Positions 17,088 to 59,019 of a stretch of 64,000 nt of DNA are shown here, in pieces; position 1 is the first letter of the stretch; each line of letters opens with the position of its first letter. The notes beneath the pieces are model-generated. The model made no database searches and had not been told where the DNA came from. It saw only the letters and a list, made by a program, of their open reading frames with translations. The DNA comes from Bacillota bacterium (GTDB lineage: Bacteria > Bacillota > Negativicutes > CTSoil-072), in contig JAGFZV010000002.1 in NCBI GenBank assembly GCA_017889545.1, forward strand, positions 62,001 to 126,000, given 5' to 3'. Made by a program: the position numbers and the translations under genes.

Positions 17088-17105
17088 GCAATTGTTAATT
17101 GAATA

Positions 17106-17190: not shown

Positions 17191-17203
17191 TGATGATTAG
17201 GAA

Positions 17204-38740: not shown

Positions 38741-40882
38741 ATGAAAGATAAGCAAGAAATTGCAGCGACGGAAGAAAAAGACGATGTGCTTGATCCGAAG
38801 TTACAGTGTTTTTTAATCGTCGCCGGTGTGTTGCAAGTATTTATCAGTGAAACGGAAGTGCGTCAGGCAGTTGAAAAAGGAGTGCGGGAAACAGGGGATA
38901 TTCTGCGGATGGCCAAAACGTTCAGAGTCAAAGCGAATGTGATCCGGCCTGAATTGCAAGAATTGCCCGATATTCCTCTGCCGGCGATTGCCGTAATGAA
39001 GTCCGGTGATTGGGTTGTTATTGGACGCAATGATGATCAAAAAATTCTGGTGCTGCAACCCGGGGAAGATGATCCGCGTCCAACGCCCTTGGATGAATTT
39101 GTTGCTGCATGGAGCGGTGAAGTGCTGACTTTTCAGCGGCGGTTCAGTTGGCAGCATTTTTTGCGTCAATACAATTTAAACTGGTTTACAGGTTCAATAT
39201 TGCAGTACAAGATGTTTTTGGGGGAGGTTGTCGTAGCTTCCTTCTTCTTACAGTTATTTGCGTTGATTACTCCTCTATTCACACAGGTTGTTGTGGATAA
39301 AGTGATTGGGAATCAGGGGATTTCTACATTAAATGTGCTCGGAACCGTGTTTGTTATTTTTGCGCTTTTTCAGTCCGGAATGGGTATTTTGCGTACCTAT
39401 TTGTTGAACCATACGACCAATAAGCTGGATGTTATTTTGGGGACAAAGTTGTTTCGGCACCTGCTGTCGTTGCCGCTGCCCTACTTTGAGCACCGGCAGG
39501 TAGGGCATACTCTGATGCGGATCAGTGCACTGACTAGCATTAGGGAGTTTCTAACCGGTTCAGCGATTACTGTTTTACTGGACACTGTATTTTCAGTCGT
39601 CTTTTTTGCGGTTATGTTTTATTACAGCTGGTCCTTGACGCTCATTGCCTTGGCTGCATTGCCCGTTTATCTTTTGCAGAACGTGATTGCCACTCCGGTG
39701 TACAAACATCGTTTGGATGCGGTTTGGGCGGCGGAAGCGGATAATAATGGCTTTATGGTCGAGGCGGTGACCGGGATCCAGACAGTGAAGGCATTGGCGA
39801 TTGAGCCGCAGTTCAACCGTCGCTGGGAAGAACTCATTGCAAGTTATGTGCGGGCTACGTTCCGCAGCGCTGCCCTGAACATCAGCGTAAGCAATACCAG
39901 TGGACTTGTGCAGCGATTATCAAACCTCGTTATTCTTTGGGTTGGCGGTCATATGGTCATGGATGGCAGGCTGACACTTGGGCAGTTGATTGCATTTCAG
40001 ATGCTTGCGGGGCAGGCCAGCAATCCTGTCTTGGAATTGATTGGGAAATGGCAATCCTTTCAACAAGCCGGATTGTCCATGGAGCGGATGGGCGATATCT
40101 TGAACACCCGGCCGGAACTCGTTTATGCAGCTCCGGCGGAGCAACCACCTATTGAAGGGCGTATCCGGTTTGAAGATGTTTCTTTCCGTTATGACCCGCA
40201 TGGTCCGCTCATTCTGGATTGCATTCATCTGGATATCCCAGTAGGCAAACGGGTTGGAATTGTAGGCCGCTCCGGGTCTGGGAAAAGTACATTAACGAAG
40301 CTGGTGCAGAATTTCTATATCCCGGAGAAAGGACGGGTAATCATTGATGATTCGGATTTAAAGACTGTAGAGCCCTCGTGGCTTCGCCGCCAAATTGGCA
40401 CGGTAATGCAAGAAAGCTACCTGTTTGGCGGCAGCATCCGGGATAATATTGCAATGGCTGATCCAGGCGCTGATATGGAAGATGTGATCAAAGCCTCTCA
40501 GACTGCCGGTGCACACGAATTTATTTTGGAATTGCCGCAAGGCTACGACACAATGGTAGGAGAACGCGGTACGGCGTTGTCAGGCGGCCAGCGTCAGCGG
40601 ATTGCTATTGCCAGGGCGCTTTTAACGGGGCCAAGGATTATCATTTTCGATGAAGCCACCAGTGCGCTTGACTATGAGTCAGAGAGGATTATTACCGATA
40701 ATATGAGCGCTATTTGCGCAGGCAGGACAGCGTTGATCATCGCTCACAGACTTTCAACAGTGAAAGATTGCGATCGAATTATTGTGCTGGATCATGGACG
40801 GATTGTCGAGCAAGGTTCGCACGCCGAATTGATTGCGCAACAAGGCGTGTATCAAAAATTAGTTGCGCAGCAAGAGGGATGA
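38741..40882 (+). CDS. Type I secretion ABC transporter with inactive C39-like domain (HlyB/LapB type), copy 1
   Basis: 713-residue inner membrane ABC exporter. An N-terminal C39-like domain (about 15-140) lacks both the catalytic Cys-Gly context and the His of true C39 peptidases (GDWVVIGRN where the peptidase has HYVV), so it should bind and not cleave substrate, as in HlyB. A six-helix membrane domain (about 160-440) follows, then an ATPase with GRSGSGKST near residue 510, LSGGQRQR near 612 and IIFDEATSALD. Start behind GGAGAGG. It pairs with the HlyD-like gene that overlaps its end and with a second ABC protein downstream; the TolC-like gene at 4785 may complete the channel. Confidence 0.92.
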   Translation: MKDKQEIAATEEKDDVLDPKLQCFLIVAGVLQVFISETEVRQAVEKGVRETGDILRMAKTFRVKANVIRPELQELPDIPLPAIAVMKSGDWVVIGRNDDQKILVLQPGEDDPRPTPLDEFVAAWSGEVLTFQRRFSWQHFLRQYNLNWFTGSILQYKMFLGEVVVASFFLQLFALITPLFTQVVVDKVIGNQGISTLNVLGTVFVIFALFQSGMGILRTYLLNHTTNKLDVILGTKLFRHLLSLPLPYFEHRQVGHTLMRISALTSIREFLTGSAITVLLDTVFSVVFFAVMFYYSWSLTLIALAALPVYLLQNVIATPVYKHRLDAVWAAEADNNGFMVEAVTGIQTVKALAIEPQFNRRWEELIASYVRATFRSAALNISVSNTSGLVQRLSNLVILWVGGHMVMDGRLTLGQLIAFQMLAGQASNPVLELIGKWQSFQQAGLSMERMGDILNTRPELVYAAPAEQPPIEGRIRFEDVSFRYDPHGPLILDCIHLDIPVGKRVGIVGRSGSGKSTLTKLVQNFYIPEKGRVIIDDSDLKTVEPSWLRRQIGTVMQESYLFGGSIRDNIAMADPGADMEDVIKASQTAGAHEFILELPQGYDTMVGERGTALSGGQRQRIAIARALLTGPRIIIFDEATSALDYESERIITDNMSAICAGRTALIIAHRLSTVKDCDRIIVLDHGRIVEQGSHAELIAQQGVYQKLVAQQEG

Positions 40883-40884
40883 TG

Positions 40885-42249
40885 ATGAATAAGAAATGGA
40901 GACCTTGGAATTTATTTAGAAAGGAAAGTGGTCGAAAACTTACCCGGCGGGAAACCGAATTTTTGCCTGCTGTCCTGGAAGTGACTGAGACTCCGCCGTC
41001 GCCTCTTGGCAGAATATTGTTATGGACGATTATTGGTTTGACAGCAGCGGTCGTTGTATGGTCCGTTTTTGGCCGCGTCGATGAGGTTGCCCTGGCTCCC
41101 GGAAAAATCATTCCGATGGGGCAAGTGAAACCATTGCAGGCGGAGGATAAGGGAATTGTAAAACAGATATACATCCATGAAGGGCAGCGAGTAAAAAAAG
41201 GAGAAACGCTGATGGAATTGGACAGGGTCATATCTGCTGCGGATGTGGAACGGATCAGGAAGGAAGTCCTGTACTATACACTGGAAATTCAGCGGCTTTC
41301 GGCGGAAAAGGAACGTCGTCCGTTTACACCACTCCGCAACGGGGAAATCGATCCGCAAAACATTGATTTTCAAATTCAATTGTACAACAGCCGCAATAAT
41401 GAATATCGGGCAAAAGTTGGCGCTGCCGAAGATGGTGTCCGACAAAACGAAGCTGCATTGGAGATGGCTGTGATTAACCGGAATAAATTGTCAGACCAAT
41501 TAGCGGTGGCTGCTGATAAGGAAGAACGAATTGAAAGACTGCTTGAACAAAATGCAATCGCATTATTTCAAGTGATGGATCAAAGATCAAGACGAATGGA
41601 ATTGGAACAAAATTTGGCGGCTCAAGAAAAAGAAATCGTTCGCAGCCGGGCAGTTCTTGCACAAAGCAAGAAAAATATGGAAAGTGTTGTAGCTGAACAT
41701 GACCGTGAGGTTGGCACGAAACTGTTGGAAGATCAAAAACAATTGGCGGCGTATCAAGCGGAACTAAAAAAAGTGGAAGAGAAGGACCGGCTGACCAAGA
41801 TTATCGCTCCCGCTGACGGGACGGTAAGCCAATTTTCCGTTCATTCACCGGGTGCCATAGTCACAACGGCTCAGGTCTTGATGGTTTTGGTTCCCAATGA
41901 TGTTGAACTGGAAGTGGAAGCGTGGGCTGCAAACAAAGATATTGGGTTCATTCGCATCGGTCAGATGGCAGAAGTGAAGATTGACACGTTTAATTTTCAA
42001 AAATACGGTGTGATTGCTGCGGAAGTGGTCGATATTAATCCGGATGCGGAACAGGATAAAGAGAAAAACTTTGCGTATCGTGTGCGGTTGAAATTGGCGA
42101 AAGACAGCGTGGCAGTCAATGATAAAATGATCCCGCTGACTCCTGGAATGACCGCTATGGCCGAAATAAAAATTCGACAGAAGCGGGTAATCGAGTATTT
42201 CCTGGATCCATTCCGGCAGTATCAGAGCGAGGCGCTGAGGGAGAGGTAA
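40885..42249 (+). CDS. HlyD-family membrane fusion protein
   Basis: Periplasmic adaptor of type I secretion, 454 residues. A cytosolic N-terminus (about 1-45) precedes one membrane helix (about 46-67), then a lipoyl half-motif (VKPLQAEDKGIVKQIYIHEGQRVKKGETL), a long coiled coil (about 115-300), the second lipoyl half (RLTKIIAPADGTVSQFSVHSPG) and beta-barrel domains. Three in-frame ATGs overlap the stop of the ABC gene; the third (40885) has GAGGG at the best spacing. The open frame extending back to 40714 is only read-through of the ABC gene in another frame. It lies between two ABC genes with no gap. Confidence 0.93.
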   Translation: MNKKWRPWNLFRKESGRKLTRRETEFLPAVLEVTETPPSPLGRILLWTIIGLTAAVVVWSVFGRVDEVALAPGKIIPMGQVKPLQAEDKGIVKQIYIHEGQRVKKGETLMELDRVISAADVERIRKEVLYYTLEIQRLSAEKERRPFTPLRNGEIDPQNIDFQIQLYNSRNNEYRAKVGAAEDGVRQNEAALEMAVINRNKLSDQLAVAADKEERIERLLEQNAIALFQVMDQRSRRMELEQNLAAQEKEIVRSRAVLAQSKKNMESVVAEHDREVGTKLLEDQKQLAAYQAELKKVEEKDRLTKIIAPADGTVSQFSVHSPGAIVTTAQVLMVLVPNDVELEVEAWAANKDIGFIRIGQMAEVKIDTFNFQKYGVIAAEVVDINPDAEQDKEKNFAYRVRLKLAKDSVAVNDKMIPLTPGMTAMAEIKIRQKRVIEYFLDPFRQYQSEALRER

Positions 42250-42252
42250 CAA

Positions 42253-44364
42253 ATGGAGAAATTGGACACCGGACTGCTTAGTTTGGTTAAATTAGCAAAA
42301 TTGCTGGGTATTCCTGCGGATCCAAACCAGATGCAGCGTGCTTATGCGGCTGGTGAAGAAGGCATGAACCAGGTCGCCATTCTCCGGGCGGCTAAGGACT
42401 TGGAACTAAAGGCTTCTTTATTGCGCCCAAATCGTGAGACCTTGGCGCAACTGCCGTTCCCTGCGATTGCTATTCTCACGAATGGCAATTATGTGGTGAT
42501 CATCCGCAGTTATGGCGCCAATTTGATTATTGACGACCCTTACCGTAAACAGCCGTTTTATATTCCCTTGGCCCAATTTCAAAAAGCCTGGAGCGGAGAA
42601 ATCATTTTGCTTGTTCGCCGCCCGACGATCAAAACAGCCCTGCAGGAATTCGGAATGAATTTATTTCTGCCTGTGATAGGAAAATATCGAAGTATACTGC
42701 TAAAAGTATTGTTTATGTCATTTATTTTGCAGTTATTTGGGTTGATTGCACCACTTTTTATGCAAGTAATCATTGATCGGGTGCTGGTTCACCGCAGCTT
42801 GAGCACGTTGGATATTCTTGTGGCCGGCATGGTTGCGATTGCTGTTTTTCAGGCATGGATTACTGCTTTGCGCGCGTATCTGTTTACCAATACTACCAAT
42901 AAAATTGACGCTTCACTCAGTAGTCTGCTTTTTCGTCATGTTACCGCCTTGCCCCTTAGTTATTATGAGAAATGGCAGGTCGGCGATATTGTTTCCCGGA
43001 TCCGTGAAGTAGAAACCATTCGTAATTTCCTGACGGGAACGGCCTTAACCGTTGTTTTGGACATTTTGTTCGCCATCGTATATATCGGGGTAATGCTGAC
43101 CTATAGTACGACCCTCAGTCTTACTCTCTTAGTCGTACTGCCGTTTTTCATTATTTTAAATTTGCTGCTTAGTCCCTGGTTCCGCCGCCTGATCAATCAA
43201 CGCTTTCAAGCGGCTGCAGCAAACCAGTCCTTTTTGATCGAAGCGGTTACCGGGATCCAAACCGTAAAATCAATGGCAGTCGAGGCTAACTTTGCCCGTC
43301 GATATGAGGAGGGATTAGTACGGTTTGTAAAAGCCGCTTTTTCGACAACCAATTTATCTAATGTGGCCGAGAACATCGGCGGTTTTGCACAGCAAGCCTT
43401 CCAACTGAGTATTCTCTGGATCGGCGCCCGGGCGGTAATTGATCAAAAATTGACAGTTGGCGAATTGATTGCGTTTCAGATGCTGGCCGGTCAAGTGATC
43501 GCGCCGATCTTACGACTGGTCAATACTTGGCAGTACTTCCAGCAAACCCGAGTTTCTGTTGACCGGCTTGGCGATATTTTGAAAGAACCGGCAGAGCCAG
43601 CGTTTAATCCAAATCGAACGACACTGCCGGAAATCCAGGGCGATATTAAATTGGATAGGCTGACCTTCCGCTATCGGGCAGAGGGTAATGAAATTCTGCG
43701 TCAAATCAGTCTTCACATCAAACCGGGTACCCGTGTGGGCATTGTAGGGCGCTCCGGTTCGGGGAAAAGCACATTGACCAAATTGATTCAAAGGCTTTAT
43801 GTCCCGGAAACCGGCAGTGTTTTTATTGATGGCGTTGATCTTGGTCAAGTCGAGCCTGCCTGGCTGCGTCGTCAGATCGGCGTAGTTTTGCAGGAAGATT
43901 TTCTCTTCAATGGAACCGTGATGGAAAACATTGCCATCGCCCGCGACACGGCATCATTGGAAGAAGTGAAGCATGTTGCGGTTATGGCGGGAGCGGATGA
44001 ATTTATTATGGAATTGCCGGACGGATATGATACCAAAGTGGGAGAACGGGGTTCTTTGCTGTCCGGCGGGCAGCGGCAGCGGATTGCCATTGCCCGTGCG
44101 CTGCTGAATAATCCCAAGATACTGATTTTTGACGAAGCGACCAGTGCTTTGGACTATGAATCGGAACGGATTATTATGAACAATCTCGATCAAATTGCAC
44201 AAGGGCGCACGATGCTCCTCATCGCACATAGATTGTCAACTGTCCGGCGAAGTGATTTGATCATTGTCCTGGACCGTGGACAGGTGGTCGAGCAAGGGAC
44301 CCATGAAGAACTGGTGGCTCGTGGAGAATACTATTATCAGATGGTTCAGCAGCAACAATTATAG
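42253..44364 (+). CDS. Type I secretion ABC transporter with inactive C39-like domain, copy 2
   Basis: 703-residue paralogue of the gene at 38741, with the same order: C39-like domain (about 1-135, again no catalytic Cys or His, with NGNYVVIIRS), membrane domain (about 155-430) and ATPase (GRSGSGKST near 500, LSGGQRQR near 602, LIFDEATSALD). It starts three bases after the HlyD gene behind GGGAGAGG. The two ABC proteins are similar throughout and probably arose by duplication; they may form a heterodimer around one adaptor or serve two substrates. No RTX-like or glycine-zipper substrate gene is in the operon. Confidence 0.92.
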   Translation: MEKLDTGLLSLVKLAKLLGIPADPNQMQRAYAAGEEGMNQVAILRAAKDLELKASLLRPNRETLAQLPFPAIAILTNGNYVVIIRSYGANLIIDDPYRKQPFYIPLAQFQKAWSGEIILLVRRPTIKTALQEFGMNLFLPVIGKYRSILLKVLFMSFILQLFGLIAPLFMQVIIDRVLVHRSLSTLDILVAGMVAIAVFQAWITALRAYLFTNTTNKIDASLSSLLFRHVTALPLSYYEKWQVGDIVSRIREVETIRNFLTGTALTVVLDILFAIVYIGVMLTYSTTLSLTLLVVLPFFIILNLLLSPWFRRLINQRFQAAAANQSFLIEAVTGIQTVKSMAVEANFARRYEEGLVRFVKAAFSTTNLSNVAENIGGFAQQAFQLSILWIGARAVIDQKLTVGELIAFQMLAGQVIAPILRLVNTWQYFQQTRVSVDRLGDILKEPAEPAFNPNRTTLPEIQGDIKLDRLTFRYRAEGNEILRQISLHIKPGTRVGIVGRSGSGKSTLTKLIQRLYVPETGSVFIDGVDLGQVEPAWLRRQIGVVLQEDFLFNGTVMENIAIARDTASLEEVKHVAVMAGADEFIMELPDGYDTKVGERGSLLSGGQRQRIAIARALLNNPKILIFDEATSALDYESERIIMNNLDQIAQGRTMLLIAHRLSTVRRSDLIIVLDRGQVVEQGTHEELVARGEYYYQMVQQQQL

Positions 44365-44523: not shown

Positions 44524-44553
44524 TTGACAGGGTAGAATTAGAAAGAGTACAAT
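44524..44553 (+). promoter_or_regulatory. Promoter of the exopolysaccharide operon
   Basis: Perfect TTGACA (44524-44529) and TACAAT (44548-44553) with an 18-base spacer. It is the best promoter in the 730-base gap 44365-45094 and gives a leader of about 530 bases that contains both tandem RNA elements. Between 44554 and 44740 I see no gene. Confidence 0.6.
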
Positions 44554-44743
44554 GAAACCATAAAGTTGAAACAGCAAGTGGAGAGGATGAAAAAAGGGGA
44601 AGAATATCCACAGAATGTCCAAAACGGCGGATATCAGCTTTCTCAAGACAAACAAGCTTTGGCAAAAACGTTGAAATGGCGAATGTTCAACTATATAGCA
44701 TATTCGTAAGAAGTGAATCCTGCTGCTGCCGGTTATATTCCGT

Positions 44744-44866
44744 TCATATTTGCTGTATAACCAAATATGACGTAGGAGACGCATTGAGGCATAAAACGTA
44801 TGTGGTCACTTGTTTTATGCGGAGCGAGTAGTGAAACCGCCCCTGTTTTCTACTGGGGTGGTTTTT
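44744..44866 (+). ncRNA. Structured leader RNA element with terminator, copy 1
   Basis: Three hairpins in order. P1: TCATATTTG (44744-44752) with CAAATATGA (44762-44770). P2: GCATAAAAC (44789-44797) with GTTTTATGC (44812-44820), closing the loop GTATGTGGTCACTT. Terminator: ACCGCCCC (44836-44843) with GGGGTGGT (44855-44862), then TTTTT. The P2 loop bases GGTCACT can instead pair with AGTGAAACC just after P2, which would take the left terminator arm and allow read-through. The same architecture recurs in copy 2. I cannot match it to a named riboswitch class. Confidence 0.7.
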
Positions 44867-44894
44867 GGTCTCAGGAACTTCTGATATCCCCTAA

Positions 44895-45021
44895 TCATAT
44901 TTGATGTCCTAATCAAATAATGATAGTGGAGATGCGTTGAAACATAAAACGTATGTGGTCACTTGTTTTATGTGGAGCAAGTAGTGAAACCACCCCTGTA
45001 TTTGTGCTGGGGTGGTTTTTT
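44895..45021 (+). ncRNA. Structured leader RNA element with terminator, copy 2
   Basis: Repeats the order of copy 1. P1: TCATATTTG (44895-44903) with CAAATAATGA (44914-44923). P2: ACATAAAAC (44942-44950) with GTTTTATGT (44965-44973), around the identical 14-base loop. Terminator: ACCACCCC (44989-44996) with GGGGTGGT (45009-45016), then T6. Relative to copy 1, the base of P2 changes from G-C to A-T, a compensatory change that supports the helix. The conserved linker GGAGAYGCRTTGA precedes P2 in both copies. The first gene of the operon begins 74 bases later. Confidence 0.7.
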
Positions 45022-45094: not shown

Positions 45095-45727
45095 ATGAAA
45101 AGACTTTGGTGGATATTTCTAGTTCTGATGATGATCTTATCAGTGAACGTTCAGCCGGTTTCTGCGGCAAGCTATGCAATTGCTCAAGGTGATGTGCTGT
45201 CGATTGATGTCTTCGGGTTGGAGGAAATGCAATTCAAGGAAATTATCGTGCGGCCGGATGGGAAAATCGATTTTCCCTTGATTGGGGAAATTCAGGCTGC
45301 TGGCAGCACGCCGTCAGAGCTTGCTCTGACAATGCAGGAGAAGCTGGCGCCGTTTGTAAAAGCGCCAAAGGTTTCGGTGAACATTGCCCGATTCCATACG
45401 ATTAAAGTGTATGTTCTCGGAGAAGTCAATCGTCCGGGGATCATAGAACTGCAATACTCGCATACCGTAATTGATGCGATTGCCGGAGCAGGCAGCTGGA
45501 CGAAAGACGCTGCAAAAAAGAAAATTCATTTGATTCGGTATGGACAAAAAAGCGATCCAATCGTAGTAAATCTTTTGCACATGCTGAAAAAAGGTGACAC
45601 GACTCAAAATTATGAATTGGGAAATGGTGATATTTTATTCCTTGACGGCAATGGACGGTTGGATTGGGCGCGTGACATTGCACCAATTATTTCATCCTCG
45701 TATTATATCAGCAGATTAGATGACTGA
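45095..45727 (+). CDS. Polysaccharide export protein, OPX (Wza-like) family
   Basis: 210-residue exported protein with signal peptide ending near VSAAS (residue ~25). A Poly_export domain (YAIAQGDVLSIDVFGLEEM, VRPDGKIDFPLIGEI) is followed by one SLBB domain (VYVLGEVNRPGIIEL) and a C-terminal hydrophobic stretch. There is no lipobox Cys and the long C-terminal helix of Wza is missing, so it is a short OPX variant. Start ATG behind a G-rich site. It is the first gene after the tandem leader RNA and acts with the chain-length protein and kinase that follow. Confidence 0.9.
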   Translation: MKRLWWIFLVLMMILSVNVQPVSAASYAIAQGDVLSIDVFGLEEMQFKEIIVRPDGKIDFPLIGEIQAAGSTPSELALTMQEKLAPFVKAPKVSVNIARFHTIKVYVLGEVNRPGIIELQYSHTVIDAIAGAGSWTKDAAKKKIHLIRYGQKSDPIVVNLLHMLKKGDTTQNYELGNGDILFLDGNGRLDWARDIAPIISSSYYISRLDD

Positions 45728-45756
45728 TGATGAAGAGTAAAGTGAGGGGTGAAGTC

Positions 45757-47157
45757 ATGGTTGAAAATAATTATGAATTGCAGGATAAAATCCGGGCAAT
45801 TAAAAAATACCGGTGGCTTATTTTTAATTGTTTCTTTTTTGCCGGCGTTATTGCTGCGGTTGTTAGCTTTATGATGACGCCGACCTATCAGGCGGACACG
45901 GTATTGCGTGTTCATCAGCCCAAAGGGGTTGAAACAGCGTTATTGGGTAATCGGCCAAATTCGACTGATACAAGCAAACAGTTGATGTCAACATACGCCG
46001 ATATTATAAAAAGTCGTGGAGTAGTCGAAGCAGTCATTGAAAAAGCAAATTATCCGGCTTCGAATAAACCAGCGTATGAAGATATGGCGAGACGGATTAC
46101 TACACAAATTGGCAAGGAAAATGAACTCCTTACCGTGAGGGTCCAGGCAAATGACCCGGAAGAGTCGCAAAAAATCGCCAATTTGTTGACAACGACTTTT
46201 ATCGAACGGCTTACTTCATTGGTGCGTGCAGAACAGAAAGACGTCCGTGTTTTTATTGGTGATCGTTTGATAGCGGCGAAACAGGATCTGGAAAGATCGG
46301 AGAAGGCCGTAGCCGATTTTAAGCGGGACGAAAAAGCAGTGTCGCTGCAGGATAAAACACGGTCGCTGGTCGATTGGCAAACCGCTGTAACCCGTTTGTC
46401 GGCGGAAAATAGAGTTTCGCTGGCGTCTGCGCAAGCCCGGGTGAGCAATGCAAGCAGAGAATTGGCAAGCGAAAATGCAGGAGTTTTTGCAGATAACTCT
46501 CTAATTCAGCAGTATAAGAGCCGGTTGGCCGACCAACAGATCGAACTGGTTAGTCTTATGACGAGATACAATGATTTGCATCCCAGAGTAGTGACCGCGA
46601 AAGCCGGAATTGAGGAAACAAAAGCGAGTTTGAATTCGGAAATAACCAAGGTTGTAAACTCTGAAGCCCCCTCAATGAATCCGGTTCATCAGATTATTTT
46701 GCAGAATAAGATCCAGGCACAGGCAGAGATGGCCGCTATGAATGCCCAACAAAGTGCAATCGCGGGCGTAATGGCTGACAGTGAAAAAGAACTGGCGAGC
46801 CTGCCGGCGAAAGAACAGGGTTTAGCCCGGGTAACGCGTGACGCTGCAGTAGCCCAGGAAGTATATACTATGCTGGCCAGACGGCACGAAGAAGCGAAAA
46901 TCAGTGAAGTCATGCAGTCAACGGATGTCCAGATTGTTGATCTGGCAACGACTCCATCACTTCCTGTAAAACCGGCGAAAAAGCTTAATATCGTTGTCGC
47001 TTCCTTGTTGGGCTTGCTGCTCGGCACAGGAATAGCCGTTGTACTCAGCGGTATTCGCCGTACAGTCGATAACGCGGAGGATGTGAAACGCTTTCTCGAT
47101 TTGCCGGTTATTGCCAGTATACCAACGTATGGATCTGCGGAACGAACGAAACAATAA
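45757..47157 (+). CDS. Chain-length determinant / Wzz-family co-polymerase (no kinase domain)
   Basis: 466-residue inner membrane protein with two helices (about 27-48 and 415-436) enclosing a large periplasmic coiled-coil domain (about 165-370). The N-terminal Wzz signature and the Pro-rich SLPVKPAKK segment before the second helix are typical. It carries no ATPase; the kinase is a separate gene next door, the arrangement of Gram-positive CpsC/CpsD. The ATG at 45757 is preceded by GAGGGGTGA; an upstream ATG at 45730 is less well placed. It controls polymer length together with the BY-kinase. Confidence 0.88.
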   Translation: MVENNYELQDKIRAIKKYRWLIFNCFFFAGVIAAVVSFMMTPTYQADTVLRVHQPKGVETALLGNRPNSTDTSKQLMSTYADIIKSRGVVEAVIEKANYPASNKPAYEDMARRITTQIGKENELLTVRVQANDPEESQKIANLLTTTFIERLTSLVRAEQKDVRVFIGDRLIAAKQDLERSEKAVADFKRDEKAVSLQDKTRSLVDWQTAVTRLSAENRVSLASAQARVSNASRELASENAGVFADNSLIQQYKSRLADQQIELVSLMTRYNDLHPRVVTAKAGIEETKASLNSEITKVVNSEAPSMNPVHQIILQNKIQAQAEMAAMNAQQSAIAGVMADSEKELASLPAKEQGLARVTRDAAVAQEVYTMLARRHEEAKISEVMQSTDVQIVDLATTPSLPVKPAKKLNIVVASLLGLLLGTGIAVVLSGIRRTVDNAEDVKRFLDLPVIASIPTYGSAERTKQ

Positions 47158-47192
47158 CGTTGGACAAGTAAATTAAGAATGGAGTGAGATAG

Positions 47193-47882
47193 ATGATGCA
47201 GGAAGATAAGCTTATGATCCGTGATCAGGCGCAGTCGCCGGCGGCGGAAGCGTTTCGAAGCTTACGGACATATATCCAATTGTCGCAGGACGACGATGCG
47301 ATGAAAACAATATTATTTACCAGCACCGGTTCCGATGAAGGGAAGTCGCTTACTGTGGCCAATACGGCCATATCCATCGCTCAGTCCGGCAGGAAAGTCA
47401 TTATTATGGATTGCGATTTGCGGAAACCGGTACAGCATGAAATTTTTGGTCTTCAGAATATGGGAATTACAGATATTCTGACCGGGAAAAAGAATGTGGG
47501 AGAACTGATACAAAAAACGGAAATTACGAACTTGTATCTGTTGGCCAGCGGCACGATTAACAAACACCCTGCAGAATTGCTTGCAGCTACCAGACTTTAC
47601 AAAATTTTTGAAGCGCTGAAAGAGGAAGCAGATGTCATTCTGGTTGATACGCCGCCCATAATGGCAGTAACTGATGCTTGCATTTTGGCAGGAAGTGTCG
47701 ATGGGGTTGCTCTTGTTTTGGATGCTGGGTCCGTTCATCCCAAAGATGCGCAACGGGCGAAGGAAAGACTGCTCAGGGCCAAGGCCAACATTATTGGCGT
47801 GATTATGAACCGGGTTCAAACTGGCGACGAAGAGCTTTATCAACAGTATTATTATCAGGCGGTTCAGCAAAAAGTGCGATAA
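47193..47882 (+). CDS. BY-kinase (CpsD/CapB-like tyrosine autokinase)
   Basis: Cytosolic bacterial tyrosine kinase of 229 residues. Motifs: N-terminal SPAAEAFRSLRTYI, Walker A TGSDEGKSL (near residue 50), Walker A' VIIMDCDLRKP (near residue 70) and Walker B VILVDTPP (near residue 150). The tail YQQYYYQ is the expected autophosphorylated tyrosine cluster. It is activated by the cytosolic end of the adjacent Wzz-like protein. No matching tyrosine phosphatase gene is seen in the window. Confidence 0.93.
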   Translation: MMQEDKLMIRDQAQSPAAEAFRSLRTYIQLSQDDDAMKTILFTSTGSDEGKSLTVANTAISIAQSGRKVIIMDCDLRKPVQHEIFGLQNMGITDILTGKKNVGELIQKTEITNLYLLASGTINKHPAELLAATRLYKIFEALKEEADVILVDTPPIMAVTDACILAGSVDGVALVLDAGSVHPKDAQRAKERLLRAKANIIGVIMNRVQTGDEELYQQYYYQAVQQKVR

Positions 47883-47905
47883 ATGGCATATAAGGGGCGT
47901 TTATT

Positions 47906-49804
47906 ATGCGGTATTTAATCTTGTGCGGTGCACTGATGATCACGGATGCCATCATCGTGGCGTTGACACCATTCATTGCGCTGTATATAAGATTCGAGGG
48001 AAATATAGAAGCTTCATTTTATGCTACGCTTGTTGATTTCGTTCCGGTCATCGTTGTTGTGCAGATGGTATTGTTTTACATCTTCCACCTGTATCAGCGA
48101 TTATGGCGTTATGCCGGGATACACGAATTATTCAGCATTGCAGGGGCGGTGACGATCGGATCGGTCATATTGCTGATCGTTGCTTACGGCAGTAATATAG
48201 TGTTGCCGCGCAGCATGTATTTTTTGAGCGCTGTTCTCAATATGGCCTGCATCGGACTAAGCCGCATTCTGGTGCGCGTTGCATACCACCGACGACATCA
48301 GCGCCACAAGCAGTGCACGAACATACTGATTGTTGGCGCCGGTGACGTCGGCGCTTCCATCGCCAAAGAAATTAAAGACCATTATGGTGACAGCAAAAAA
48401 ATTATCGGCTTTATTGACGATGATCCGGCGAAGATCGGACAGCGGTTGCTTGGCGAAAAGGTGTTGGGCAACAGGCAAGTAATCCAGCAGATCGTTACAC
48501 GGCATAAAGTTCAGGAAATTATCATCGCGATTCCATCGGCGAATGGAACTTTGGTGCGGGAAATTATGCAGGTTTGCCGGCAAACAAAGTGCAGTGTCAA
48601 GGTCGTCCCGGCGATCCATGAGGTTATTGACGGGATCGTCACGATGCGTCAGTTGCGGGATGTGAATCTGGAAGATTTGCTGCGACGCGATCCGGTAAAA
48701 CTTGACCAATCGCTTGTAAAAGAATATTTGACAGGCAAGAGTATTGTTGTCACCGGTGCCGGAGGATCGATTGGCTCGGAACTATGCCGTCAAATAGCGA
48801 GAATGTCTCCCCGGCAATTGATATTGCTGGGGAAAAGTGAGAATAATATTTGGGATATCCAGCGCGAATTACAGTGGGATTATCCGGGCCTTTCGACGGA
48901 GGCAATCATCGCCAATGTTTGTGATGAAAAACGAATCCGCAATATTTTCGCCCGCTTTCGTCCGCAAGTTATTTTTCATGCAGCGGCTCATAAACACGTG
49001 CCTTTGATGGAAAGCCAACCGGATGAAGCGGTTAAGAATAATGTGTTTGGTACCAAAACCGTTGCAGAAGCGGCTGCTTGGATTGACGTCGATCGGTTTG
49101 TGATGATTTCTACGGATAAGGCGGTCAATCCAACCAGCATCATGGGTGCTACCAAGCGGGTCGCGGAGATGATCATTTGCGGAATGAACACGAAGACGAA
49201 GAAAAATTTTGTGGCTGTCCGGTTTGGCAATGTCTTGGGCAGCAGAGGAAGCGTAATCCCTCTATTCCGCAAGCAAATTGTAAAAGGCGGTCCGATCACT
49301 GTTACCCATCCTGATATGCAGCGGTATTTCATGACCATTCCGGAGGCGGCCCAATTGGTGCTGCAGGCTGGCGCTATGGCGCAAGGCGGGGAAGTATTCG
49401 TTCTCGATATGGGCAAGCCAATTCGCATCCTTGATATGGCCTGCGACTTGATTGAATTAACCGGACTGGTCCCCCACAAAGATATTAAAATTGAATTCAC
49501 CGGTCTTCGTCCGGGCGAAAAGCTATTTGAAGAGTTCCTCTCCGCTGAAGAGGGCAGTTCTTCCACCAAGCATGAAAAAATATATGTCGCTAATCTGAAG
49601 ACGGTGGATCCGCAAAAACTGAATGAAGGGTTAACCTTGCTTGAAGCAACGGATGATCCGGACAAAATCATTACCATTTTGCGCAGATTAGTTCCGACGT
49701 ATGTTCGTGGCTTGTCTACGTACCGCCGATCTTCAGGCAGTGACGAAATGGTAATGGAAACGGGCAAGATGCCTGATTTTGATAATAGGCATGAAAGCGG
49801 TTAA
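47906..49804 (+). CDS. Membrane-bound nucleotide-sugar 4,6-dehydratase (CapD/WbpM/PglF type)
   Basis: 632-residue two-part enzyme. Four membrane helices (about 1-110) are followed by a degenerate nucleotide-binding region (NILIVGAGDVGASIAKEI near 140) and a catalytic SDR domain (VTGAGGSIGSELCRQIA near 285). The WbpM-type active site is STDKAVNPTSIMGATKR near residue 410, with Met in place of the usual Tyr. It converts UDP-GlcNAc to the 4-keto-6-deoxy sugar, precursor of bacillosamine, QuiNAc or FucNAc. An aminotransferase that would use this product is not seen before the window ends. Confidence 0.93.
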   Translation: MRYLILCGALMITDAIIVALTPFIALYIRFEGNIEASFYATLVDFVPVIVVVQMVLFYIFHLYQRLWRYAGIHELFSIAGAVTIGSVILLIVAYGSNIVLPRSMYFLSAVLNMACIGLSRILVRVAYHRRHQRHKQCTNILIVGAGDVGASIAKEIKDHYGDSKKIIGFIDDDPAKIGQRLLGEKVLGNRQVIQQIVTRHKVQEIIIAIPSANGTLVREIMQVCRQTKCSVKVVPAIHEVIDGIVTMRQLRDVNLEDLLRRDPVKLDQSLVKEYLTGKSIVVTGAGGSIGSELCRQIARMSPRQLILLGKSENNIWDIQRELQWDYPGLSTEAIIANVCDEKRIRNIFARFRPQVIFHAAAHKHVPLMESQPDEAVKNNVFGTKTVAEAAAWIDVDRFVMISTDKAVNPTSIMGATKRVAEMIICGMNTKTKKNFVAVRFGNVLGSRGSVIPLFRKQIVKGGPITVTHPDMQRYFMTIPEAAQLVLQAGAMAQGGEVFVLDMGKPIRILDMACDLIELTGLVPHKDIKIEFTGLRPGEKLFEEFLSAEEGSSSTKHEKIYVANLKTVDPQKLNEGLTLLEATDDPDKIITILRRLVPTYVRGLSTYRRSSGSDEMVMETGKMPDFDNRHESG

Positions 49805-49855
49805 ACGGATCATGCATAGCTGATGATGGAAATTTTTTATATCGGGGTGAAACAA

Positions 49856-51142
49856 ATGGCTGATAAAGCAATCGTTCCTTTGCAGGCCTATACTGTTGAC
49901 ACAGACTTGGAAAAAAATTTCGTCAAGGTATTTTTGTTATTGCGTGACATGTTTGTCCTCTCCACATTATTGTTTTTTGCGTTGCGGCTGGACAGTTACC
50001 TTTTCCGTGCTGGGTCATTGCCGGTGGCGCCAATCGTCTTAATGGCAGCGTGGATGATTTGGATATGGACATTGAGTGCAATCTCAACGATGTTCGAACG
50101 CGGATATTCCCTGGTTTTCACACGCGCCATGCCGATTATTCTCCCCTTTATCGCGATTATGGGGGTTAGTTGGGTAGGCATATTTTTAGAAGGAGCATAC
50201 CTGGATGACAATTACAAGTCGGTATTGATGCCTACTCTTGATTTCGGCATCTTTTTGACAGGGATTATCATCGGAGCCATGCGCATCAGTAAAAGGAAAT
50301 GGTCTCTGGCCCTTGCACTGGGGTTGTGCTGCATCCTGGGTACTGTCTTTATCGATGTGATCAATCCGGGTACATTTTCAAGATTGGATTACCGTGCATC
50401 CGGACTGTATGAACAACCCAACATCGCAGCTTTCACCATGGTCTTATTTCTTACCGCTATATTGCGGTGGGAAAAGAAATCGTTAAATCTGACTGATATG
50501 ATTTTTGCCACTGCCTGCGGTATTGGCGTATTTTTCACTTTTTCCCGGGGCGGGGTTGTAGAGTTTTTACTGATCGCTTGTTTGTATTGGTACAATTTAA
50601 GGAATAAAGAGCGCAGCTATTTCATTATAAAAGGGCTTGTCTTTTTGATCTTCCTTGGAGGGATCATTGTATTTCTGATGCCGGACTATATTAGCCGTCT
50701 TGAAATTCTTCAATTCAAATCTACGCGCTTGGATTGGTTTACGGGCGATGTCGGCGGGGCTGTTTCCATATCGGATTCAAGGGTGAAAATACTCGATGAA
50801 TATTTGCCATTGATTGCCGCCAGTCCGGTTTTGGGAAATGGTTCAGGTTACATTAATTCAATGTGGTTGGGTCCGCATAATATCTATATCGCCATGTGGG
50901 TTGAAAACGGGATAGTTGGTTTATTATCCTATATTTGGCTGTTGGTCGCTCTTCTAGTTGTCAATAAACGAATGAATAATTATTGTGGGGTAGCCATGAT
51001 TATCCTCATTATGGCTTACGGGTTTCTTACCCACAACTTATTGGATGAACGGCCATTTCTACTGTTGACGTCGATTTTGACAACGCGGGCAATAAGCGCT
51101 GAAATTATGGGTGCGGAGAAGAACGAGACAGAGCGTGGATAA
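49856..51142 (+). CDS. O-antigen ligase / polymerase-like membrane protein (Wzy_C family)
   Basis: 428-residue polytopic membrane protein with about 11 helices. A larger external loop near residues 280-330, before LGNGSGYINSMWLGPHNIYIAMWVENGIVGL, matches the Wzy_C pattern with its conserved HN. It would polymerise repeat units or ligate the finished glycan. The ATG at 49856 has GGGGTGA upstream; the open frame begins 33 bases earlier. No Wzx flippase is seen in the window, so one is expected downstream. Confidence 0.85.
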   Translation: MADKAIVPLQAYTVDTDLEKNFVKVFLLLRDMFVLSTLLFFALRLDSYLFRAGSLPVAPIVLMAAWMIWIWTLSAISTMFERGYSLVFTRAMPIILPFIAIMGVSWVGIFLEGAYLDDNYKSVLMPTLDFGIFLTGIIIGAMRISKRKWSLALALGLCCILGTVFIDVINPGTFSRLDYRASGLYEQPNIAAFTMVLFLTAILRWEKKSLNLTDMIFATACGIGVFFTFSRGGVVEFLLIACLYWYNLRNKERSYFIIKGLVFLIFLGGIIVFLMPDYISRLEILQFKSTRLDWFTGDVGGAVSISDSRVKILDEYLPLIAASPVLGNGSGYINSMWLGPHNIYIAMWVENGIVGLLSYIWLLVALLVVNKRMNNYCGVAMIILIMAYGFLTHNLLDERPFLLLTSILTTRAISAEIMGAEKNETERG

Positions 51143-51187
51143 ACAGTAAGCCGTTCACTATTCACCATGCTGGGGGGAGGCAAAGCC

Positions 51188-52348
51188 GTGAAAATATTGC
51201 ATATTATTACCAGCCTGTATGCCGGCGGAGCCCAAATCATGCTCTATAAGCTGCTGGCGAATAATGACCGGATGCGCCTCGATTCAACAGTAATTTCGTT
51301 AATGGATTCTGCGGAAATGGGCGAAAAAATAGAGTCGCTTGGGGTCGATGTTCATTCTCTTGGTATGAAACGGGGAACAGTGAGTTTGAAAAAGATTTTG
51401 TACTTGACCCAGCTGATCCGCAAAATTAACCCCGATCTCATCCAGACGTGGATGTATCATTCAGACTTATTAGGATCATTGGCAGCTTTGCTTGCAGCTG
51501 TGCGCGTACCGGTAATATGGGGGATCCACCATAGCAATTTGGATCCGCAGTACAATGATCCAACGACGCTGAAAGTCGCAAAACTTTGCGCCCATATCTC
51601 GCGTTTTATGCCGGCACGCATCATTTCCTGTTCGCAGGCGGCGAAAGAAACGCACCGGCAAATCGGTTACTATCAGGAAAAGATGGTAGTAATTCCCAAT
51701 GGCTTTGATCTGTGCGAATTTCACCCTGATCAAGAAGCGCGTGAGGTGGTAAGGGAAAATTTGCACATCAATTCGGAAACGATTTTAATCGGGATGATGG
51801 CCCGTTTTGATCCGCAAAAAGATCACAAAAATTTTATTCAGGCGGCTAGTATTTTGTTGCAGGAACATCAAAACGTAGAATTTGTCCTTTGCGGCAGCGG
51901 GATGGATCAACAGAATGCAGCCTTAATGGAATGGATCAGGGAAGTTGATATTGAACCGAAAGTCCATCTTCTTGGGCACAGAAAAGATGTATCACGGATA
52001 TTGGCGGCTCTGGATATCGCAACGTTGTCTTCGTGCGGTGAAGCGTTCCCGCTTGTGGTTGGAGAGGCAATGGCCTGCGGAATTCCTTGTGTTGTTACAG
52101 ATGTTGGCGACTCAGCTTTGCTTGTAGGCGACACTGGCATCATCGTTCCGCCGCAGAACCCGCTTGCATTGGCCGAGGGATGGTCGATGTTGATTGATGC
52201 AGGCGCAGAATATAGAAAAAAAACAGGAAATGATGCCCGTGCCAGGATAAGCAGTACTTTTGACATAGCGGATATTGCCGTACGATACGGCGAAGTATAT
52301 AAAGAGGCGCTTTACGGTCCGCTTACCGATCCGTGGCCGTGTGAATAG
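51188..52348 (+). CDS. Glycosyltransferase family 4
   Basis: 386-residue GT-B fold retaining glycosyltransferase. N-terminal ILHIITSLYAGGAQIMLYKLL and the C-terminal E-x7-E motif in CGEAFPLVVGEAMACGIPCVVTD (near residue 285) are diagnostic. Start GTG behind GGGGGAGG. It transfers a sugar in repeat-unit assembly on the cytosolic face; the donor cannot be predicted. Confidence 0.9.
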   Translation: MKILHIITSLYAGGAQIMLYKLLANNDRMRLDSTVISLMDSAEMGEKIESLGVDVHSLGMKRGTVSLKKILYLTQLIRKINPDLIQTWMYHSDLLGSLAALLAAVRVPVIWGIHHSNLDPQYNDPTTLKVAKLCAHISRFMPARIISCSQAAKETHRQIGYYQEKMVVIPNGFDLCEFHPDQEAREVVRENLHINSETILIGMMARFDPQKDHKNFIQAASILLQEHQNVEFVLCGSGMDQQNAALMEWIREVDIEPKVHLLGHRKDVSRILAALDIATLSSCGEAFPLVVGEAMACGIPCVVTDVGDSALLVGDTGIIVPPQNPLALAEGWSMLIDAGAEYRKKTGNDARARISSTFDIADIAVRYGEVYKEALYGPLTDPWPCE

Positions 52349-52395
52349 TCAAGATGCAAATCAGAATATGGTGATGAATAAAGGAGGCGGTTATT

Positions 52396-53679
52396 GTGGA
52401 CCGCAAAATCGGGGTAGTAGGGCTTGGTTATGTTGGTCTGCCTGTCGCAATTGCTTTTGCCAAAAGGTTTGAAGGGGTAGTCGGTTTTGATGTCAATCAG
52501 GAAAAGGTAAAGAAGTTGCAGCGAGGCATTGACAGCACGGGAGAATTGGGAAAAGAGGCATTGCAAACCACTACATTGACCATCACGTCTGATCCCAATA
52601 TTCTAAAAAGTATTGATTTTTTCGTTGTAGCTGTGCCTACCCCTATTGATAAGGCGCACCGTCCGGAAATGACAGCACTGATGAAAGCTTCGCAGGTTGT
52701 TGGCAGCGTAATGCGGCCGGGTGCGATCGTAGTCTATGAATCAACTGTTTACCCCGGTGTTACGGAAGAAATATGCGGTCCGATATTGGCAGAATATTCA
52801 GGACTAAAGCGCGGAAAAGATTTCAAACTCGGTTATTCGCCGGAACGGATTAATCCCGGTGATAAACACCATCGACTGGAAACAATTGTTAAAGTGGTTT
52901 CAGGCGAAGATGAAGCAACTCTAAAAACCGTTGCCGAAGTGTATGAAGCGATTATCGACGCCGGCGTATACCGGGCACAAAGCATCAAAGTAGCGGAAGC
53001 GGCAAAAGTTATTGAAAATACACAGCGAGATTTAAACATAGCACTGGTGAATGAGCTGGCGATTATTTTCAATATGCTGGATATTCCCACGGAAGCTGTT
53101 TTGGAAGCCGCGTCGACGAAATGGAATTTCCTCCCGTTTAAACCAGGCTTGGTTGGCGGACATTGCATCGGGGTCGATCCATATTACTTGACGTACAAAG
53201 CCGAAGAGGCGGGTTACATTCCGCAAGTTATCCTGGCTGGCCGCCGAATCAATGACCATATGGGCGAATATATTGCCCGGCAGACCGTCAAAGCGATGGT
53301 CGCTGCGAAAAAAAACCTTTGCCGTGCCAAGGTGGCTGTGATGGGGCTGACATTTAAGGAAAACGTACCAGACCTTCGCAACAGCCGGGTTGTTGATATC
53401 CTTCAAGAACTGCAGACATATGGAATTTGTGCGAAAGTACACGATCCGCTGGCTGATCCGAAAGAAGCCTTTGAAGAGTATGGAGTGACACTTTGTTCCG
53501 ATGATGATCTGCAGCATTTGGATGCCATTATTTTGGCGGTTGCCCATGATGTCTACATCAAAAATGGCAGCGCGGGCTTGCTGGACAAACTACATAACGG
53601 CGAGGGTGTGATCGTTGATGTCAAGTCAAAATTCAAGAGCAGTGAATTCCCCCCCGAAGTTGTCTACTGGAGCTTATAA
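52396..53679 (+). CDS. tviB: Nucleotide-sugar 6-dehydrogenase, TviB/WbpA-like
   Basis: 427-residue UDP-sugar dehydrogenase, NAD-dependent, oxidising C6 of UDP-GlcNAc to the uronic acid. [19 protein letters not shown] is the NAD site at residue 6, and the catalytic Cys is in [12 protein letters not shown] near residue 257. The C-terminal UDP-binding domain has [18 protein letters not shown]. The start is GTG behind GGAGG. A TviC-like epimerase overlaps its 3' end, so the pair most likely makes UDP-N-acetylgalactosaminuronic acid as in Vi antigen. Confidence 0.9.
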
Positions 53680-54694
53680 GCAACTGTGCGAAACCTTGCG
53701 GGAAAAACCGCGAAAATGGCTGATAACCGGGGTTGCTGGCTTTATTGGTTCAAATTTGCTGGAGAATTTGCTTTTGCTGGACCAAACGGTGATCGGTCTG
53801 GATAACCTGTCCACCGGACATCAACGCAATATTACGGAGGTTATCTCCGCCGTCGACCCGCTTCAAGCGTCACGTTTTTCGTTTGTCGAAGGCGATATTG
53901 GCGATTTGACCACCTGCCGATCCTGTTGCGATGGAGTTGATGTTGTTCTTCATCAGGCAGCGTTAGGGTCGGTACCCCGTTCCATCGCTGACCCGATTGC
54001 CACCAACCGCAGCAATATTGACGGTTTTTTGAACATGTTAGTTGCCGCAAAGATTTCGAAAGTCAGCCGCTTCGTTTACGCTTCTTCCAGTTCCGTATAT
54101 GGTGACCATCCGGGTCTGCCCAAAGTAGAAAGTGTAACCGGCCGTCCCCTTTCGCCATATGCGGTGACAAAGGCTGTCAATGAGTTGTATGCCGGAGTAT
54201 TTGGCCTTAATTATCACTTGGAATGCATAGGACTTCGTTACTTCAATGTTTTTGGACGCCGTCAGGATCCCGATGGCATGTATGCGGCAGTAATACCGAA
54301 ATGGGTTAACAGCCTGTTGCGGGGGGAGGCGGTATACATCAATGGCGATGGTGAAACAAGCCGGGATTTCTGTTACGTTGCCAATGCAGTGCAAGCGAAC
54401 TTACTGGCTGGCTGCACAAACAACCCAGACGCTCTGATGCAAGCTTACAATGTTGCTTACGGCGAAGTGACCACGCTGAATGAATTATTTACACTTCTTT
54501 GCGACCGGATTGCGGCCTATCGGCCGCTTACAGCAGAGGCCAGTCCGCATTACCGGGATTTTCGCCCCGGAGACGTCCGTCATTCCCTGGCTGATATCAG
54601 CAAAGCACAAACCCTTCTTGGTTATGCGCCTACCCATTCGATACGTGAAGGGTTGGACGAGGCGATTTCATGGTACATAAAGCACTTGCTTTAA
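53618..54694 (+). CDS. tviC: UDP-N-acetylglucosamine(uronate) 4-epimerase, TviC/WbpP-like
   Basis: SDR epimerase of 358 residues. [19 protein letters not shown] (near residue 38) is the NAD site, [14 protein letters not shown] and [14 protein letters not shown] follow, and YAVTK holds the Tyr-x3-Lys pair; the [23 protein letters not shown] segment is specific to the WbpP/TviC group. It overlaps tviB by about 60 bases, which is long; a start at the TTG at 53660 would match relatives better in length but has no clear ribosome binding site, so the start is uncertain. Product with TviB: UDP-GalNAcA. Confidence 0.9.
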
Positions 54695-54716
54695 AGGTGC
54701 AGGGAGGTGATTGCGC

Positions 54717-55832
54717 TTGGCAAAAATCATGATTATTGCCGGATACGGCAAATCGCTTATCGGTTTTCGCGGCGATATGATACAAGAGATGGTCAGACAG
54801 GGTCATGAGGTCATTGGCATGGCGCCGGAAGAAGGCTTTGAGCCGGCAATGCAAAAATTGGGAGCGAAATACCAGCGCATTCCGTTAGCGCGCCACGGCA
54901 TGAACCCTTTGCAAGATTTGCGCACCCTTGGCTTTTTGGTTAAAAAAATGCGTGAAATCAAACCAGACGTGGTGATTACGTACGCTGCCAAGCCGATCAT
55001 CTATGGGAATTTGGCAGCCAGACTTGCGAAGGTTGAAAATACGTATACGATGATTACTGGGATAGCATATGCGTTTATAGGAGAAAATTGGAAACAGAAA
55101 TTAATAGCACTGTTTCTTACTCATTCCTATCAAAATGTAATGAAATACAATAAAGGGTTAATTTTTCAGAACAAAGATGATTTGAAATTATTTCAAAACT
55201 TAAAAATTGTAAGGAATGGACAAAAAACGACCATTGTAAACGGATCCGGCGTTGATATCGACAAATATGTGTCTGCCGTCGATCCGCCGCAACCGCTATC
55301 ATTTTTATTAATTGGCCGTCTTGTCTGGGCAAAAGGCATCGGAGAATTCGTTGAAGCAGCGCGATTGCTAAAAAAACGTTATCCGCAAGTGCGTTTTCGC
55401 ATTCTTGGGCCGCTGGATGAAGGAAATCACAATGCGATTACGCAGGAATACATCCGAAAGTGGCAGGAAGAGCAGCTGATTGAATATCTTGGCAAGACAG
55501 AAGATGTCCGTCCATATCTTGAAGCAGCCAGCGTATGCGTTCTTCCTTCCTATCGGGAAGGGACGCCGCGTTCCGTATTGGAAGCCATGTCAATGGGGCG
55601 GCCGGTGATCACCACTGACGCGCCGGGTTGCAGGGAAACTGTGAACGATGGCGTGAATGGGTATTTGGTTCCGGTTAGAGACATAAACAAGCTGGCAGCC
55701 GCTATGGAAAAGTTTATATTGGATCCTGATTTAATCTCGGTTATGGGAAAAAAAAGCCGTCAGATGGCCGTAGACAAATATGATGTCCATAAGGTTACGC
55801 ATTCTATACTGCAAGCAATGGAGTTGGTGTAA
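54717..55832 (+). CDS. Glycosyltransferase family 4 (PglA-like)
   Basis: 371-residue GT4 enzyme. KIMIIAGYGKSLIGFRGDMI at the N-terminus, TYAAKPIIYGNLAARLA, and E-x7-E in REGTPRSVLEAMSMGRPVITTDAPG near residue 285 fit the group that adds the second sugar after a PglC-type transferase. The TTG start at 54717 follows AGGGAGGTGA. The PglC-like gene follows after two bases. A middle part (about residues 120-170) is more AT-rich than the rest. Confidence 0.9.
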   Translation: MAKIMIIAGYGKSLIGFRGDMIQEMVRQGHEVIGMAPEEGFEPAMQKLGAKYQRIPLARHGMNPLQDLRTLGFLVKKMREIKPDVVITYAAKPIIYGNLAARLAKVENTYTMITGIAYAFIGENWKQKLIALFLTHSYQNVMKYNKGLIFQNKDDLKLFQNLKIVRNGQKTTIVNGSGVDIDKYVSAVDPPQPLSFLLIGRLVWAKGIGEFVEAARLLKKRYPQVRFRILGPLDEGNHNAITQEYIRKWQEEQLIEYLGKTEDVRPYLEAASVCVLPSYREGTPRSVLEAMSMGRPVITTDAPGCRETVNDGVNGYLVPVRDINKLAAAMEKFILDPDLISVMGKKSRQMAVDKYDVHKVTHSILQAMELV

Positions 55833-55834
55833 GC

Positions 55835-56446
55835 GTGATCAAGCGAACATTTGACGTTCTGACAGCGATCATAACGATCCTTCTGCTATCCCCCCTATTT
55901 ATTATTGCAGCGCTGGTGGTGAAAGCCAGTCTTGGGTCGCCGGTTCTCTTCCGGCAACAGCGGCCTGGGTTTCATGGCAAGCCATTTGAACTAATTAAAT
56001 TTCGTACCATGACGGAGGAACGAGATGGTTTGGGGAATTTGCTGAGTGCAAAAGAACGGGTTACATCCACTGGCAGGATCCTTCGTCAGTTGAGCCTGGA
56101 TGAACTGCCCCAACTGTTTAACGTAATCCGGGGGGACATGAGCTTGGTTGGTCCGCGGCCTCTTCTTATGGAGTACTTGCCCTTATACAATCAAGAACAA
56201 GCAAGAAGGCATGAAGTTAGACCGGGAATTACCGGCTGGGCGCAAGTCAATGGCCGGAATGCGATAACCTGGGAAGAAAAATTCAGCTTGGATGTCTGGT
56301 ATGTCGATCACCGGAGTTTTTGGCTGGACCTCAAAATACTCGCTTTGACCTTTTTGAAAGTGATACAGCGTTCCCAGATCGACAAACCGGGAAAAGATAA
56401 AGGAACAGTAGGAATGGAGCGTTTTCGGGGGCCGGGCAAGGCATGA
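55835..56446 (+). CDS. Initiating sugar-1-phosphate transferase, PglC-like
   Basis: 203-residue monotopic phosphoglycosyl transferase that loads the first sugar phosphate on undecaprenyl phosphate. One N-terminal re-entrant helix (about 8-32) is followed by the family motifs KFRTM, the catalytic Asp-Glu in LSLDELPQL (near residue 88), VGPRPLL and RPGITGWAQVNGRN. The small size is the PglC type, not the longer WbaP type. Start GTG. Since a 4,6-dehydratase and PglD-like acetyltransferases are present, a bacillosamine-type or similar acylated amino sugar may be the primer. Confidence 0.92.
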   Translation: MIKRTFDVLTAIITILLLSPLFIIAALVVKASLGSPVLFRQQRPGFHGKPFELIKFRTMTEERDGLGNLLSAKERVTSTGRILRQLSLDELPQLFNVIRGDMSLVGPRPLLMEYLPLYNQEQARRHEVRPGITGWAQVNGRNAITWEEKFSLDVWYVDHRSFWLDLKILALTFLKVIQRSQIDKPGKDKGTVGMERFRGPGKA

Positions 56447-56484
56447 AATGAGCAAGATCAATCGGACGGTAAGGAGATGACTTT

Positions 56485-57117: not shown

Positions 57118-57143
57118 AATAAACGGGGATGGAGGGGACGAGG

Positions 57144-57410
57144 ATGAAACAACAAGAATTAATCGAAAAACTGGCAGAAGCATTATTTGAACCGGCAGAA
57201 AGGCTTGCATTAACGACAGAATTGAACAATCTTGATGGCTGGGATTCATTGGGACGGTTGAGTATTGCCGCTTTGTTTCACGAAACCTTCGGACTGACGA
57301 TAGAAACGGCAAGGCTCAAACAATGTACCACGATACAGGATATCATCAACTTTGTCAGCGATAAGTTGGAGAAGGAAGAAGAAGCCAAACATTCGTTAAG
57401 AGTTTGCTGA
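57144..57410 (+). CDS. Acyl carrier protein-like, copy 1
   Basis: 88-residue carrier with the phosphopantetheine Ser at residue 35 in GWDSLGRL and a following FHETFGLTI helix. The tail is charged (KLEKEEEAKH). The ATG at 57144 has GGAGGGGACGAGG upstream. It lies 31 bases before an adenylation enzyme that probably loads it. It is unlike the highly acidic fatty-acid ACP in its N-terminal region and belongs to dedicated carriers. Confidence 0.85.
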   Translation: MKQQELIEKLAEALFEPAERLALTTELNNLDGWDSLGRLSIAALFHETFGLTIETARLKQCTTIQDIINFVSDKLEKEEEAKHSLRVC

Positions 57411-57441
57411 ATGTACCGGCGACGTTAGGGAGGGAACTTCA

Positions 57442-58968: not shown

Positions 58969-59019
58969 TGGGCGAAAAGTGATCGTATCCCGAAATTGCA
59001 ACGATTGCGAGGGAGCACA

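Follow-up and report, generated by a model that had tools for sequence, protein, structure and literature searches.

Two complete c-di-GMP-II riboswitches in tandem in the leader of a Negativicutes exopolysaccharide operon

The leader of an exopolysaccharide operon in the window (the whole stretch of DNA analysed, 64,000 nucleotides) contains two similar structured RNA elements in a row. What are these elements, which signal do they read, and what would a second copy add to the control of the operon? Direct reading of the sequence places TCATATTTG at 44744 and again at 44895, a spacing of 151, whereas the conserved cores are spaced 153 because of a 2-base indel. The linkers read GGAGACGCATTGA and GGAGATGCGTTGA in the two copies, and the same 14-base loop, GTATGTGGTCACTT, starts at 44798 and 44951. 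These features agree with the sequence-only reading of the locus, which had described two repeats 151 bases apart, with hairpins, linkers, terminators and an identical 14-base loop. The cores of copies 1 and 2 are identical at 55 of 62 positions, and their stem differences are compensatory. Besides the G-C to A-U exchange at the second stem, which had been noticed before, the short helix contains a second compensatory pair, which is C-G in the first copy and U-A in the second. An AU-rich hairpin, located mostly outside the Rfam model, precedes both copies and is common to three of the four related elements in this genome (copy 1, copy 2 and a copy designated C18).
44744–44769 (+): AU-rich hairpin upstream of riboswitch 1, read from the sequence; weak fold; also present in copy 2 and the C18 copy
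44895–44925 (+): AU-rich hairpin upstream of riboswitch 2; fold of −9.3 kcal/mol

We searched the whole 64-kb window against Rfam by covariance model. Both elements match RF01786, the c-di-GMP-II riboswitch, above its curated gathering cut-off of 53.5 bits.
44768–44851 (+): c-di-GMP-II aptamer, copy 1; RF01786, 60.5 bits; pocket positions 69/70/73 are A, A, G
44921–45004 (+): c-di-GMP-II aptamer, copy 2; RF01786, 60.8 bits; pocket positions 69/70/73 are A, A, A
Each match covers model positions 1–84 in full, with E about 5e-11 in the 64-kb window, and two covariance-model matches of this strength in 64 kb mean that the tandem elements are not due to chance. Both elements are members of a named class, the c-di-GMP-II riboswitch, and not a new RNA class. 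The sequence-only reading, which recognized no named riboswitch and regarded a significant Rfam match as decisive against an unknown RNA, is refuted on this point by the significant RF01786 matches of both copies. The c-di-GMP-II variant families in Rfam (GAG and GCG) do not outscore the main family; cmscan, which reports the best member of a clan, gives c-di-GMP-II for both copies. A PyrR-site match (E 0.33), under its cut-off, was discarded as a chance match from the terminator region. Judging from class membership, the ligand of both copies is very probably c-di-GMP, which names the signal very probably controlling the exopolysaccharide operon.

The Rfam alignment places the linker and the second stem with its 14-base loop on the RF01786 model. 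The GGTCACT/AGTGAAACC pairing is the pseudoknot of the c-di-GMP-II class and encloses two bulged pocket adenines.
44804–44838 (+): pseudoknot of copy 1; GGTCACT 44804–44810 with AGTGA 44830–44834 and CC 44837–44838; bulged AA 44835–44836
44957–44991 (+): pseudoknot of copy 2; GGTCACT 44957–44963 with AGTGA 44983–44987 and CC 44990–44991; bulged AA 44988–44989
We take the bulged adenines to be A69 and A70 of structure 3Q3Z, a numbering correspondence of our own. As in RF01786 and 3Q3Z, both copies consist of a stem, a short helix, a pseudoknot with two bulged adenines, and P1. They differ from the RF01786 consensus in one pseudoknot pair, which is U-A here and G-C in the consensus, with U-A seen in other members. 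We aligned 30 aptamers, of which this genome supplied four and its taxonomic class the remainder. All seven pseudoknot pairs are present in 30/30 sequences (100% paired), and one of them varies between G-C (14), A-U (10), and U-A (6). The structure including the pseudoknot has 80.4% of cells paired, versus 34–43% in slid controls, and a covariation score of 0.50, versus 0.18 in shuffles; as a whole it beats every shuffle on both measures, as well as every slid control. In the model's register, the outer part of P1 pairs loosely (56% of cells), and P1 is weak in both tandem copies.

Each aptamer runs into an intrinsic terminator, as had been proposed, and we located and folded both stems with their T-tracts.
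44835–44866 (+): intrinsic terminator 1; stem 44835–44863, T-tract 44862–44866; left arm overlaps the pocket, the pseudoknot and the P1 3′ strand
44988–45021 (+): intrinsic terminator 2; stem 44988–45017, T-tract 45016–45021
In isolation, the hairpins fold at about −16 kcal/mol (terminator 1) and −18 kcal/mol (terminator 2). The left arm, AACC[G/A]CCCC, begins at the pocket adenines and takes in the CC of the pseudoknot and part of the P1 3′ strand. The 3′ strand of the pseudoknot thus doubles as the left arm of the terminator, making aptamer and terminator mutually exclusive; this strand overlap bears out the exclusive states that had been envisaged for the pairing of the loop with AGTGAAACC. 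In the copy upstream of a Tad-pilus operon in the same genome, the strand reads AACCCACCCC and the right arm of the terminator reads GGGGTGGG, not GGGGTGGT. In that copy, the C at pocket position 70 faces a G in the right arm, which argues that this strand really pairs in the terminated state.

The overlap suggests how the two elements would work. With c-di-GMP bound, the pseudoknotted aptamer would hold AACC and the adjoining C-rich strand; sequestration of that strand would deprive the terminator of its 5′ arm and permit read-through, so each copy should be an ON switch. In C. difficile, class II c-di-GMP riboswitches have been described as switching transcription on (PMC11477304). Since RNA polymerase must clear both terminators, read-through should be roughly the product of the two occupancies, and the doublet would respond more steeply and with less leak than a single copy. 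Terminator 1 may itself leak, because its T-tract has five T only. The earlier expectation that a tandem sharpens the response is one we share as a prediction, given the digital control found in serial c-di-GMP-I switches (PMC4759541). We therefore consider it highly probable that the leader of the exopolysaccharide operon contains a doublet of complete c-di-GMP-II ON riboswitches, through which high c-di-GMP would turn on polysaccharide synthesis and export.

Both complete aptamers, with their separate terminators (44768–44866 and 44921–45021), lie before one operon, between a candidate promoter and a gene for polysaccharide export.
44524–44553 (+): promoter candidate TTGACA-18-TACAAT; 11 of 12 consensus bases; consensus match only
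45095–45727 (+): polysaccharide export protein (Wza-like), first operon gene; Poly_export and SLBB domains
45727–57117 (+): remaining exopolysaccharide gene run, with Wzz/GNVR, tyrosine autokinase, CapD-like, Wzy-like and glycosyltransferase genes, and further genes for a nucleotide-sugar dehydrogenase and epimerase (TviB/TviC-like), a sugar transferase and a NeuD-like acetyltransferase
We infer from gene order and strand that the genes at 45727–57117 belong to the operon. The TviB/TviC scores fall under the equivalog cut-offs, so these proteins are described as relatives, with no orthologue assignment. Export and synthesis genes downstream of RF01786 members are in keeping with the c-di-GMP link that had been thought to suit a polysaccharide locus. 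No relatives of the Wza-like protein were found in the named genomes, its protein family being confined to this genome. A 40-codon open frame, MKKGEEYPQNVQNGGYQLSQDKQALAKTLKWRMFNYIAYS (44587–44709, +), separates the promoter candidate from riboswitch 1; it has a good ribosome-binding site, matches no Pfam family and occurs only once in the genome. The polysaccharide run ends with genes (57129–60311, +) for an AMP-binding enzyme, a PP-binding carrier protein and a ketoacyl synthase III-like protein, which may serve to acylate the polysaccharide. The leader is closely preceded by an HlyD-like protein gene between two genes for ABC transporters that have C39-peptidase-like domains (38741–44364, +), an arrangement that resembles a type I secretion system. 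The window also contains a SAM riboswitch (14482–14581) and a TPP riboswitch (17103–17200), both on the + strand and above their Rfam cut-offs.

Whether copies also precede other loci, a point raised by the sequence-only reading, can be answered within this genome, which has four c-di-GMP-II aptamers, the tandem pair and two more elements. One of these (50.3 bits, just below the cut-off) is upstream of the Tad-pilus operon, which starts with RcpC/CpaB and secretin genes; the other is upstream of genes for a hexapeptide acyltransferase and a BKACE enzyme. The cores of these two, the Tad and C18 copies, are identical at 56 of 62 positions. The c-di-GMP-II elements thus precede c-di-GMP-type traits, the exopolysaccharide operon (tandem) and the Tad pilus operon (another copy). 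Besides 25 c-di-GMP-I aptamers, the same genome encodes 19 GGDEF domains and a PilZ domain. This places the operon in a large c-di-GMP regulon, with 29 c-di-GMP riboswitches predicted in a single Negativicutes genome. The 25 c-di-GMP-I aptamers have A in four cases and C in one at the position read as G20. These five are on contigs C8 and C27 (L189, L191, L180), three of them within 3 kb on C8, and one of the four A variants precedes a nucleotidyltransferase (GlgC-like) gene. Two same-strand pairs of c-di-GMP-I aptamers 350–570 bases apart, C23:297003/C23:297356 (L186) and C8:15412/C8:15984 (L191), are possibly further tandems.

The two copies of the doublet differ in the pocket. Positions 69/70/73 are AAG in copy 1, AAA in copy 2, and AAA and ACA in the two remaining copies of this genome; copy 1 keeps the conserved G at position 73, whereas copy 2 departs from the consensus with an A that is seen in other members too. 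A69, A70 and G73 are listed among the ligand-contacting nucleotides in a review, on whose contact list the role we assign to G73 rests (PMC7288161). Among the 119 matches listed for relatives with the U-A pseudoknot pair, a sample of one pseudoknot type and no census, the triplets are AAG (97), ACA (6), ACG (6), AAA (4) and, more rarely, ACC (3), ATA (2) and GAG (1). Changes at 70 and 73 co-occur in these listed matches (11/17 versus 4/102; Fisher p about 1e-8, kinship ignored). Among the genes that follow 70/73 variants are those for an HD-domain protein, whose translation we interpret as HD-GYP, for bacterial sugar transferases, a T2SSE/MshEN ATPase, a BTAD regulator and a mannose-6-phosphate isomerase. 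As these are largely usual c-di-GMP outputs, we think that c-di-GMP is still the ligand of these variants, though perhaps bound with a different affinity; an altered specificity is possible but unlikely. The recurrent changes raise the question of how much the class II pocket tolerates.

The A at position 73 permits a tentative refinement, in which both aptamers bind c-di-GMP with clearly different affinity, the copy 2 aptamer being the weaker, and one copy sets the threshold while the other mainly curbs leak. Terminator 2, slightly more stable than terminator 1, points the same way as the pocket difference; however, the Rfam scores are nearly equal and affinity is not readable from sequence. 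Such a two-threshold arrangement would not contradict the c-di-GMP doublet. It is quite improbable that the pair instead forms an AND gate, with copy 1, the canonical aptamer (A69, A70, G73), sensing c-di-GMP and copy 2, the variant (A69, A70, A73), preferring another cyclic dinucleotide. This idea draws on the deviation of copy 2 at a conserved, ligand-contacting position, on the coupling of 70 and 73 among the listed relatives, a correlation computed without relatedness correction, and on the A at G20 in four c-di-GMP-I aptamers of the genome, a G-to-A change associated with cGAMP sensing (PMC9481103). The genes behind 70/73 variants elsewhere, largely usual c-di-GMP outputs, argue against it. 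So do the GGDEF motifs: a serine in this motif marks cGAMP-making Hypr enzymes, but 18/18 readable motifs keep the GD residue and none has the Hypr-type serine. If the AND gate were true, an unrecognized specificity subclass would be present among the co-varying 70/73 variants of Clostridium, Syntrophomonadaceae and Negativicutes. LoaP/RfaH-like processive antitermination factors act on polysaccharide operons, as is generally known, but the earlier proposal that the elements are RNA targets of such a factor has almost no probability left, as RF01786 accounts for the whole structure including the ligand pocket and the factor is not needed.

RF01786 elements occur in 32 of 381 genomes of the taxonomic class, and the tandem described here is the only close pair found among the 381; rescanning the retrieved flanks under looser settings revealed no hidden second copies. 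Among the matches listed from other phyla is a c-di-GMP-II doublet 261 bases apart (L093). The listed matches also include three consecutive c-di-GMP-II aptamers in an unclassified Bacillota genome (L102:2019-2446, −) and two back to back with one obvious terminator, after the second (L133:1629-1800, −), possibly a dual-aptamer, single-platform c-di-GMP-II riboswitch.

The c-di-GMP-II class and its tandems are both already known, and the present locus adds an exopolysaccharide operon to the genes under tandem c-di-GMP-II control. Published tandem c-di-GMP-II riboswitches comprise 59 doublets and nine triplets, and more stringent, digital control has been predicted for them too (PMC9481103). 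The doublet described here is like them in having two complete units of the same ligand class, each with its own terminator. Unlike it, the published tandems mostly come from Paraclostridium and its relatives, where they lie upstream of a surface-anchor gene, COG4932 (PMC9481103), whereas the operon here is one for exopolysaccharide in a member of the Negativicutes. A second point of reference is the triple c-di-GMP-I tandem Bc3-5 of Bacillus thuringiensis, in which control is more stringent and digital (PMC4759541). Bc3-5 resembles the present pair as a series of ON switches for one ligand, but is built from an unrelated aptamer class (class I) and controls different genes.
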